Of a DNA stretch of 64,000 bases, positions 30,884 through 32,772 are shown piece after piece. The translations under genes were made by a program, and so were the position numbers. The notes beneath the pieces are model-generated. The model did not search any database, had not been told where the DNA came from, and worked only from the letters and a program-made list of their open reading frames with translations. Each line of letters starts with the position of its first letter. The stretch's first letter is position 1. The stretch is from an uncultured Cohaesibacter sp. (lineage in GTDB: Bacteria; Pseudomonadota; Alphaproteobacteria; Rhizobiales; Cohaesibacteraceae), in NCBI RefSeq assembly GCF_963667045.1, contig NZ_OY762934.1, forward strand, positions 3,240,501 to 3,304,500, given 5' to 3'.

Positions 30884-31156
30884 TCATCGTGTGAAATGAG
30901 TGACAAGCCACAGAACCAGAAAGATTGCGAAAATAACGCCACCAATGCGCCCGATGCGGGTGCCCCAGATCTCGATCGGGTCGTTCGGGTCCGCATCTCC
31001 GGCGCCAAGGTGCTGCCTTGCCCGGTTTGCCGTGCGGGCAAAGGCCGAGGTGCCAAGGGCTTCGCCTTCCATGTCGACACGGTCGAGAATGCGCTGGGCT
31101 TCCCGGGCCTTGTCGTCCTGGCGTTGGTGCCGCGATTTTGGATCATGCTCTGTCAT
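30884..31156 (-). CDS. Small single-span membrane protein
   Basis: 90 residues. The first 65 are polar and charged (KSRHQRQDDKAREAQRILDR, then RTANRARQHLGAGDADPND). The C-terminus is a single helix, GRIGGVIFAIFLVLWLVTHF, ending TR. It is therefore a tail-anchored inner-membrane protein with a cytoplasmic domain. AAGAGC precedes the ATG. No named domain is recognised; similar short proteins are common in Rhizobiales. It is divergent from the asd leader region. Confidence 0.7.
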   Translation of the reverse strand: MTEHDPKSRHQRQDDKAREAQRILDRVDMEGEALGTSAFARTANRARQHLGAGDADPNDPIEIWGTRIGRIGGVIFAIFLVLWLVTHFTR

Positions 31157-31360
31157 GATTGCTCTTTAACCCGCTTTTCGCCGATTGTTCAAGCGCAGAA
31201 CAGCATCTGAGGGTTCCCGGGGCTGTTCTTTTCGGTCGATTCCGTACCGCGATCGGCAAATTGTGAGTATTTTTTCTTGACTTGCGCGCACCCATACCGC
31301 AAAAGGCTTGACGTGAACCGAGAGGGTTGGGCACTCGCTGCCGCACGTGAGTTTGTGACA

Positions 31361-31474
31361 ATGGCACTCAAGATGAAAACAGCAATGATGCGCAAGACCG
31401 CTGACGTCCTCGCCGGGGCGTTCACTGCTGGCCAGACCACACCCACAACAACCACTACCACCACCAAGGTTTAG
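31361..31474 (+). CDS. Candidate threonine-rich leader peptide of asd
   Basis: A 37-codon frame ends with Gln, then TTPTTTTTTTKV and TAG: nine Thr codons in ten positions, using ACC, ACA and ACT. It lies 124 bp before the start of asd, which makes aspartate semialdehyde, the branch point to threonine. Inference: a ribosome stalling on Thr codons could switch the competing hairpins at 31476-31579. The start is unsure (ATG at 31361, 31373, 31385 or 31388) and no strong ribosome binding site is visible. TTGACT at 31277-31282 could be a -35 element. The thrL leader of enterobacteria works this way, but I know of no such leader for alphaproteobacterial asd. Confidence 0.5.
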   Translation: MALKMKTAMMRKTADVLAGAFTAGQTTPTTTTTTTKV

Positions 31475-31598
31475 GCCCCTCTCGCTCCCTGTCTGGCTTC
31501 CCCCAGGGATGTGAGGGGAGCGAAACCGCCCGCCAGCGCGCAAGCGACAGGCAGGGTGGCAATCTCGGGGGAGCTTGCGGATCAGGAGATCATTGAAA
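31475..31598 (+). promoter_or_regulatory. Structured 5' leader of asd with competing stems
   Basis: Stem A: CCCCTC (31476-31481) with GAGGGG (31513-31518), plus inner CCCTG (31487-31491) with CAGGG (31504-31508). Stem B: CCCTGTCTG (31487-31495) with CAGGCAGGG (31548-31556), one G-U pair, which excludes the inner part of A. Stem C: CGCAAGC (31539-31545) with GCTTGCG (31573-31579), ending five bases before the asd site AGGAG (31584-31588). No U-run is present, so control, if any, would be on translation or by Rho. Confidence 0.45.
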
Positions 31599-32642
31599 AT
31601 GGGTTATAAAGTTGCAGTCGTCGGGGCTACGGGCAATGTCGGTCGCGAAATGCTCGACATTCTTTCCGAACGCGGGTTCCCCGCAGATGAAGTCGTGGCA
31701 TTGGCTTCCAGCCGTTCCAAGGGCAAGGAAGTGTCCTTCGGTGACAAGATTCTGAAATGTCAGGTGCTGGACAATTATGACTTTTCCAACACTGATTTCT
31801 GTCTGATGTCCGCAGGTGGCAGCATCTCCGCCGAATGGGCTCCCAGGATTGCGGCTCAGGGCTGCATCGTCGTCGACAACAGCTCCCAGTGGCGCTATGA
31901 TGAGCGGATCCCGCTGATCGTTCCGGAAGTGAACGCTCCGGTGCTGGAAGAGTGGATCAAGAAGAAAGACCGCATCAACATCATCGCCAACCCGAACTGC
32001 TCGACGGCGCAGCTGCTTGTGGCTCTGAAGCCCCTGCATGACGCGGCAACCATCAAGCGCATCGTGGTCGCGACCTACCAGTCCGTTTCCGGCGCCGGCA
32101 AGGAAGCCATGGACGAGCTGTTCACCCAGACCCGAGCAGTGCTGGTTTCCGATCCGATCGAGGTGCACAAGTTCACCAAGCGCATCGCTTACAACGTGAT
32201 CCCGCACATCGACAAATTCATGGAAGACGGCTACACCAAGGAAGAATGGAAGGTCGTTGCCGAAACCAAGAAGATGCTTGATCCGAAGATCAAGGTGACC
32301 TGCACCGCCGTTCGCGTTCCGGTGTTCGTGTCCCATGCCGAAGCGGTCAACATCGAGTTTGAAAAGCCGATCACGGCTGACGAGGCCCGCGATATCCTGC
32401 GTGAAGCGCCTGGCTGTCTGGTCATCGACAAGCGCGAAGATGGCGGCTATATCACCCCGGCAGAAGCGGCTGGTGAAGACGCAACCTACATCTCCCGTAT
32501 CCGTGAAGATGCGACGGTCGAGAATGGCCTCAACATCTGGGTTGTTTCCGACAACCTGCGCAAGGGTGCTGCCCTCAACACCATTCAGATTGCCGAAGCC
32601 CTGATCAACCGCGGTCTGGTCAAGCCTCGCTCTGAAGCCTGA
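31599..32642 (+). CDS. asd: Aspartate-semialdehyde dehydrogenase
   Basis: 347 residues from the ATG at 31599 (AGGAG ten bases upstream). Reduces aspartyl phosphate to aspartate semialdehyde, the branch point to lysine/diaminopimelate, threonine and methionine. NADP loop VAVVGATGNVGREML at the N-terminus; catalytic cysteine in NPNCSTAQL; substrate-binding regions SVSGAGKEAMDEL and RVPVFVSHAEAVN. Monocistronic, with a strong terminator at 32671-32704 and a 440-bp upstream region that holds the Thr-rich leader. Confidence 0.97.
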   Translation: MGYKVAVVGATGNVGREMLDILSERGFPADEVVALASSRSKGKEVSFGDKILKCQVLDNYDFSNTDFCLMSAGGSISAEWAPRIAAQGCIVVDNSSQWRYDERIPLIVPEVNAPVLEEWIKKKDRINIIANPNCSTAQLLVALKPLHDAATIKRIVVATYQSVSGAGKEAMDELFTQTRAVLVSDPIEVHKFTKRIAYNVIPHIDKFMEDGYTKEEWKVVAETKKMLDPKIKVTCTAVRVPVFVSHAEAVNIEFEKPITADEARDILREAPGCLVIDKREDGGYITPAEAAGEDATYISRIREDATVENGLNIWVVSDNLRKGAALNTIQIAEALINRGLVKPRSEA

Positions 32643-32670: not shown

Positions 32671-32704
32671 AAACCGGTCTGGTTCTTAACCAGACCGGTT
32701 TTTT
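32671..32704. terminator. Terminator shared by asd and the carbonic anhydrase gene
   Basis: AAACCGGTCTGG and CCAGACCGGTTT form a perfect 12-bp stem with loop TTCTTAA, followed by T on the plus strand and preceded by A on the minus side. It lies between two convergent genes. Confidence 0.9.
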
Positions 32705-32772
32705 CATGTTCAAAGCTGATCTTTGGCAGCTTTAGGCTGTTTTGAGCGTTTGCCGTCCTGTTGGCGCTGGCT

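Follow-up and report, generated by a model that had tools for sequence, protein, structure and literature searches.

The thrL leader of enterobacteria, located upstream of thrABC, has Thr as well as Ile codons and makes use of an intrinsic terminator. In repZ/repY of plasmid ColIb-P9, which serves plasmid copy control by antisense RNA, a hairpin loop pairs upstream of the Shine-Dalgarno (SD) sequence in a manner coupled to leader translation, and the pseudoknot is a translation switch. The leader described here is located before asd, a gene that many bacteria need to live and whose step comes immediately before the pathway splits into Lys/diaminopimelate and Thr/Met/Ile branches. The LEU element of Actinobacteria combines a Leu leader peptide with a pseudoknot before leuA, and its base stem joins the Leu codons and the leuA SD; in the accessible part of that report its authors doubted leader-peptide control, found no effect of Leu codon mutations and left the mechanism open (PMC1262725). 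The uORFC-8-2 motif, located before cysS in Rhodobacterales, contains Cys codons and an intrinsic terminator, according to the available text of PMC8632094. SEP5 is an sORF of Sinorhizobium meliloti with six Thr and three Lys codons, located in the 5′-UTR of a gene called 'aspartate dehydrogenase', and its translation was shown in S. meliloti by Ribo-seq and Western blot; the accessible portion of the report regards it as a possible leader peptide with conservation limited to Sinorhizobium, and gives no RNA structure or mechanism (PMC10117765). No asd leader was found in the available portions of PMC1273637, PMC2965389, PMC8632094 and PMC4117421 (in the last, 'asd' denotes anti-Shine-Dalgarno), and no RNA mechanism for an asd leader was found in the open-licence literature, a scope outside which most subscription journals fall.

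The locus described here shares with SEP5 a Thr/Lys cluster near the 3′ end of an sORF before asd. In Sinorhizobium americanum (L092) and S. psoraleae (L096), the leaders before asd have the ending KTTAKTTTKTV and the composition of SEP5; we infer from this likeness that leaders of the L092/L096 type are identical with SEP5, since these two Sinorhizobium species were among the loci and S. meliloti was not. The earlier note on this DNA had known of no described case in this group, a statement overtaken by the S. meliloti report (available text of PMC10117765). Unlike SEP5 as described there, such leaders were found here in 24 of the 44 sampled families and with a predicted pseudoknot, and those of Cohaesibacter have few Lys codons. 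With thrL the locus has in common a Thr-codon leader for an aspartate-pathway product, Thr filling 9 of 10 codons here, but the asd leader has no terminator, contains Thr and Lys codons and precedes asd. Among known combinations of a leader with a pseudoknot, the actinobacterial LEU element comes closest: it has a pseudoknot between the leader ORF and the ribosome binding site (RBS), as is predicted here with covariation and shuffle controls, whereas the codons and gene of the LEU element are Leu and leuA in another phylum and those found here are Thr/Lys and asd. As in repZ, the loop of the asd hairpin is predicted to pair with a segment directly upstream of the SD, but repZ concerns copy control and not amino acid sensing, and there is no known homology. 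The uORFC-8-2 motif is likewise an alphaproteobacterial uORF with cognate amino acid codons and differs by its Cys codons and its terminator. By anatomy this is a SEP5-type asd leader and in its probable action a thrL-like sensor, with a predicted pseudoknot replacing the terminator.

The window, a stretch of 64,000 nucleotides, comes from a genome assembled as a single contig of 5.24 Mb and belonging to Cohaesibacter, order Hyphomicrobiales. The leader and the gene that follows it are placed as follows.

31361–31474, + strand: leader ORF, 37 codons, MALKMKTAMMRKTADVLAGAFTAGQTTPTTTTTTTKV followed by the stop
31436–31465, + strand: sensor run of ten codons (nine Thr, one Pro), with Lys and Val codons next
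31584–31588, + strand: asd SD, AGGAG, assigned from sequence and invariant in the genus
31599–32642, + strand: asd, aspartate-semialdehyde dehydrogenase, assigned by profile match

The leader ORF starts with the ATG at 31361 and ends in TTPTTTTTTTKV and a TAG stop at 31472–31474, and the distance from this stop to the asd ATG (31599) is 124 nt. The nine Thr codons in ten positions that the earlier note had placed 124 nt before asd were thus confirmed on the sequence, and the controls given below put them beyond chance. The asd product scored above the NCBIfam cut-offs of TIGR01296 and NF011456. When both strands of the 5.24-Mb genome were searched, six consecutive ACN triplets occurred in one other place, out of frame with respect to a long collagen-like ORF there. 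An ATG-started ORF of 35–39 codons ending in T-K-V or T-K-I is present in 18/18 Cohaesibacter genomes. In 17 of them the ATGs align in a single column; L014 has CTG in that column and an ATG one codon on. Between Cohaesibacter genomes, codons inside the Thr run change synonymously among ACA, ACC and ACT, and the run varies in length (e.g., five Thr codons in L011 and L017).

The distribution of the leader was evaluated on 150 asd upstream regions, from 70 of 81 related genomes (one of these 70 regions, L022, spans 138 nt only) and from 80 named loci that were the best 80 of 587. Two pairs of regions come from the same genome (L013/L074 and L031/L118), and two more pairs have identical proximal DNA. 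A region was scored as having a leader when Thr + 0.7 Lys was at least 5.5 in the last 16 residues of an ORF with its stop at −65 to −180, a threshold that was chosen after the pattern was seen and that misses the weak leaders L088 and L133 and a leader at −198 (L047). By this rule, a Thr- or Thr/Lys-rich leader ORF is present in 101/150 regions (97/146 without identical proximal DNA) and absent from 49/150. The rule was satisfied by 100/149 real regions versus 5/2980 dinucleotide shuffles, by 1/149 reverse strands and by 0/149 regions shifted 200 nt further upstream. Among the relatives outside the genus (L019–L070), 29/52 regions passed, and these represent the 24 of 44 families referred to above. 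The observation is real, and the leader is a widely conserved, probably regulatory element before asd. It is absent by the rule from Bradyrhizobium L146, Xanthobacter L127, Ancylobacter L091 and L110, three of four Methylobacterium loci (L122, L125 and L131; L129 passes) and two of three Bartonella loci (L136 and L137; L121 passes). In other alphaproteobacterial orders, 3/28 asd upstream regions passed (L156, L161 and L178), the 28 belonging to 29 loci chosen as top scorers from 108 genomes in which a match was found. L156 contains a 10-bp match, UCUCUUCUGC:GCGGAAGAGA, at the positions of the Y2 and R2 segments defined below, but its S1 stem scored poorly; L161 likewise had a poor score, and no knot was obtained for L178.

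Many Rhizobiaceae share the leader end SKTxAKTTTKTV, and KTTTTKTTV, IKTTKTTTV and AKTTTTTTL occur elsewhere. At least two Lys codons are present in 7/18 Cohaesibacter leaders versus 77/83 others, and the mean number of Lys codons per leader is 1.4 versus 2.8; the 83 others include L074 (Cohaesibacter celericrescens, a copy of a Cohaesibacter locus with one Lys) and the duplicate L118. The proposal of the earlier note that threonine is sensed before asd in the manner of thrL is supported with respect to the leader and the missing terminator but not with respect to Thr alone, since Lys codons are interspersed in most relatives.

Between the leader stop and asd, an H-type pseudoknot is predicted in which the loop of a hairpin, S1, pairs with a segment upstream of the SD to form S2. 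The order-wide consensus is a CUCUCCC-like loop paired with a GGGAGAG-like segment, and the parts of the predicted structure in the window are as follows.

31475–31491, + strand: S1 5′ arm (stem A of the earlier note), starting with the base that follows the leader stop
31495–31503, + strand: Y2, GGCUUCCCC, S1 apical loop and 5′ strand of S2, complementary to R2
31504–31521, + strand: S1 3′ arm, pairing with 31475–31491 (16 bp)
31522–31566, + strand: L3 linker, 45 nt, variable, with a local hairpin of non-conserved sequence
31567–31575, + strand: R2, GGGGGAGCU, 3′ strand of S2, SD-like, ending 8 nt before the asd SD

Three stems, A to C, had been proposed for this stretch, with A and B excluding each other. 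Stem A stands, extending slightly beyond its original span; within Cohaesibacter 97.2% of S1 cells and 100% of S2 cells are paired. Stem B (reconstructed as 31487–31491:31552–31556) is intact in 2/18 Cohaesibacter genomes and stem C (reconstructed as 31539–31545:31573–31579) in 3/18, and since neither is supported the competition between A and B is not supported either; B is not conserved, and the conserved partnership is that of the stem A loop with 31567–31575. Folding of the part after the stop (31470–31600) is more stable than that of shuffles (z −2.47), but the whole leader from 31361, for which a folding prediction had been suggested, folds no better than shuffles (z −0.24). Neither the window nor the loci of six relatives gave an Rfam match at the gathering cut-off; a single hit, to a snoRNA family, had an E-value of 0.5 and lay far below its cut-off. 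The lack of a U-run terminator, also claimed earlier, was borne out by a terminator scan, which found no terminator-like site in 31150–31700. The scan was confined to the window; T-runs were counted in the relatives, and the longest T-run after the leader stop is at most 4 in 95/101 regions.

Within Cohaesibacter, no pair changed on both sides and the covariation score was not above that of shuffles. Compensatory changes in stem A and a conserved Thr run, which the earlier note had proposed to look for in an alignment of relatives, were found between families, while within the genus two-sided pair changes were lacking. Evidence across the order was obtained by permutation tests on 48–59 representatives below 0.80 similarity, which do not model the phylogenetic tree; the partner-permutation and local-fold sets were limited to regions with 88–130 nt between the leader stop and asd. 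When each segment was paired with its own or with swapped partners in 50 representatives, Y2:R2 covaried with z −5.6 (0/2000), and a wider-window version of the permutation gave 1/5000. The S1 flanks, anchored on Y2, also paired with their own partner (z −5.0, 0/2000 permutations, n = 48/50); in coarse windows the covariation of Y1:R1 was not significant (z −1.6, 50 representatives). Partner covariation was not found among the 50 representatives for ORF:Y1, ORF:R1, ORF:R2, upstream:Y1 or upstream:Y2, and the ORF end:R2 pairing gave z −1.1. A coarse Y1:Y2 signal (z −3.5) was rejected as a pairing of its own and attributed to S1, the Y1 and Y2 windows touching one another. Duplex folding of the two halves was set aside because it allowed many interior loops.

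Geometry was evaluated in 61 modelled regions, consisting of the 59 representatives and two of the three regions from other orders. S1 is 12–17 bp long in 45 and 9–18 bp in 57, and it starts 1–3 nt after the leader stop in 44/61; L1 is 0–4 nt in 51/61, L2 is 0–1 nt in 48/61, and S2 ends 11–30 nt before the asd start codon in 51/61. All criteria together (L1 ≤ 5, L2 ≤ 1, S1 start ≤ 5, total ≤ −28) were satisfied by 59% of the 59 representatives versus 6% of 1180 shuffles. Taken singly in the same representatives, L2 ≤ 1 was found in 81% versus 45% of shuffles and S1 start ≤ 3 in 73% versus 49%, with a weak difference for L1 ≤ 4 (85% versus 76%). Summed stem energies were better than those of all 40 shuffles in 27/50 and than all but at most two in 41/50. 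A knot with a total of ≤ −28 kcal/mol, searched for without reference to the ORF, was present in 84/100 regions with the leader, 8/49 without it and 8/149 controls, and six of the eight leaderless regions with a knot (L048, L088, L101, L123, L133 and L149) carry, as judged by eye, weak Thr/Lys frames below the threshold. When 24 Rhizobiaceae and relatives were aligned, RNAalifold recovered S1, in which three pairs had changed on both sides. The leader-associated pseudoknot is thus a prediction backed by covariation between families, by geometry and by co-occurrence with the ORF. Several Rhizobiaceae (L071–L098) contain an extra pyrimidine segment between S1 and R2 (e.g., UUUCCCCCUC in L071), which may be a rival to Y2 in pairing with R2 or the SD and so provide a third state in their version.

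We infer that the element is probably a ribosome-mediated, terminator-free regulatory leader of asd, its sign and translational level being part of that reasoning. A more specific form, which we put forward tentatively as a plausible reading, is that stalling on Thr/Lys codons preserves an activating H-type pseudoknot by the asd RBS, giving a two-amino-acid translational switch that would respond mostly to Thr in Cohaesibacter. A ribosome would translate the short ORF ending in Thr codons (Thr and Lys in most relatives), both amino acids being end products of the pathway to which Asd contributes, and, when charged tRNA-Thr or tRNA-Lys is scarce, would presumably stall in the run; the whole of S1 could then fold and its loop pair with R2, forming the pseudoknot beside the asd SD. 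With plentiful amino acids the ribosome would stand at the stop and cover about 10 nt beyond it, the base of S1 would be opened, and other folds would replace the knot. A ribosome with the last Thr/Lys codon in its A site extends about 3 nt past the stop, and one with the stop codon in its A site about 10 nt. In 78/101 leaders the run closes with its final Thr or Lys codon exactly two codons ahead of the stop, and because of these footprints and this spacing a stall in the run would leave S1 whole and termination would invade it. The knot would be the shortage state, which we take as ON for asd because biosynthesis should rise in shortage. It might ease 30S loading on asd, in the way of the repZ pseudoknot of ColIb-P9, or mask R2 as an SD-like decoy; masking is one possible mode of action given the predicted anti-Shine-Dalgarno affinity of R2 (−7.3 kcal/mol, compared with −7.0 for the true SD region and −3.2 for background), which is at least equal to that of the true SD in 33/54. 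The action would presumably be on translation, not Rho or decay.

Knot and nested folds were compared in modelled ribosome states for 53 of the 59 representatives, those passing a knot energy and geometry filter, with an assumed pseudoknot penalty of 5 kcal/mol. With S1 free, the best nested fold was on average 2.7 kcal/mol more stable than the knot, which equalled or beat it in 14/53 regions, the nested fold being preferred in 39/53. A ribosome placed at the stop widened the gap to 6.5 kcal/mol, and the knot then equalled or beat the nested fold in 0/53, an outcome partly built in by removing the S1 arm. In local folds computed without constraints, Y2 stayed in the loop of S1 in 19/50 representatives only, versus 9.8% of shuffles. 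The shift between states was toward knot loss at the stop in 40 of the 53 regions and opposite in 8.

Classical four-segment attenuation, in which the apical segment would pair either within stem A or near the SD in exclusive nested helices and the segment paired near the SD would hinder initiation on asd once the leader has been translated to its end, appears unlikely. Exclusive nested folds do exist in Cohaesibacter because Y1/Y2 and R1/R2 are near repeats there, and RNAalifold, using these near-repeats, prefers one such fold in the genus, Y1:R2 plus Y2:R1. In the modelled regions, however, Y2 is in the S1 loop and not in an arm, with 0–1 nt to the 3′ arm in 48/61. The Y2:R1 pairing covaried in coarse windows (z −4.1) but not significantly when anchored on Y2 (z −1.2), for which reason the coarse signal was attributed to S1 and a Y2:R1 hairpin was rejected as a general alternative; Y1:R2, Y1:SD and Y2:SD were without partner covariation in the 50 representatives, as was R1:R2. 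Opening the SD is costlier with the ribosome at the stop in four genus members (L001, L010, L012 and L015), but this effect is absent order-wide: compared with a stalled ribosome, the cost was higher in 53 and lower in 48 of 101 regions, with no consistent difference, and values for the unpaired SD did not separate the modelled states (0.53/0.52/0.55). A simple switch by SD sequestration was rejected on the same nested folds. A metabolite- or protein-binding, riboswitch-like pseudoknot with an accidental ORF seems extremely improbable. Pseudoknots near the RBS are typical of several riboswitches, but inspection by eye showed no conserved unpaired nucleotides resembling a ligand pocket, the distances between the last Thr/Lys codon, the stop and S1 are fixed, and Rfam gave no match, a result with which a new riboswitch class would remain compatible.

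Rho-dependent attenuation would have the position of the ribosome expose or hide a Rho loading region between the leader stop and asd, with the structures tuning Rho access; we consider it quite unlikely. The window has no U-run terminator, a long untranslated stretch follows the leader stop, and the available text of PMC12218461 mentions uORFs at which stalling uncovers a rut site or an element that antagonises Rho, but the conserved loop:R2 helix adjoining the SD is left unexplained. That the peptide or transcript has some other function, as a small protein or a trans-acting RNA, and that the codon run is incidental, is in our estimate very improbable. A probable counterpart is translated in S. 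meliloti (accessible text of PMC10117765), and leader peptides can act in trans, as reported for peTrpL in the available part of PMC7298713; against this, the peptides differ widely between families outside the Thr/Lys run, as judged by eye, and the ORF and the pseudoknot co-occur.

On the reading that we prefer, stalling that preserves the pseudoknot, the leader probably allows more Asd to be made when Thr and Lys run short, and because asd stands just before the branches separate, a sensor of both amino acids on this gene would be a simple branch-point control. Much of a large order, to which rhizobia and other associates of plants and animals belong, carries the element. This reading gives SEP5 of S. 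meliloti a testable function, and a proteobacterial class of leader peptide plus pseudoknot would be added beside the actinobacterial LEU element.

Two further conserved elements are located upstream of the leader ORF in the window.

31276–31281, + strand: CTTGAC, −35-like hexamer, kept in 16/18 Cohaesibacter genomes and different in L010 and L012
31318–31326, + strand: conserved 5′ element CCGAGAGGG, complementary to 31477–31484 (CCCTCTCG) at the start of S1

CTTGAC is likely a promoter element of the leader and asd transcript; a scan with the sigma-70 consensus found no promoter at this site, so the assignment follows from conservation. CCGAGAGGG lies between this putative promoter and the leader ORF in 16/18 Cohaesibacter genomes and was not seen in the family member L019. 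It could be an anti-S1 segment for the untranslated leader or a site for a protein or sRNA; as a general 'segment 1' it was rejected, upstream:Y1 showing no covariation order-wide (z 0.1). Elsewhere in the same genome, no Thr/Lys-rich frame was found at two homoserine dehydrogenase loci (L183 and L184) or directly upstream of an AA_kinase match (L185), which we take by eye for aspartate kinase; a frame scoring 6.0 lies about 650 nt away from the latter. After asd, at 32672–32705, there is a strong inverted repeat with a T-run (AACCGGTCTGGTTCTTAACCAGACCGGTTTTTTC), which is probably a terminator common to asd and the convergent downstream ORF.
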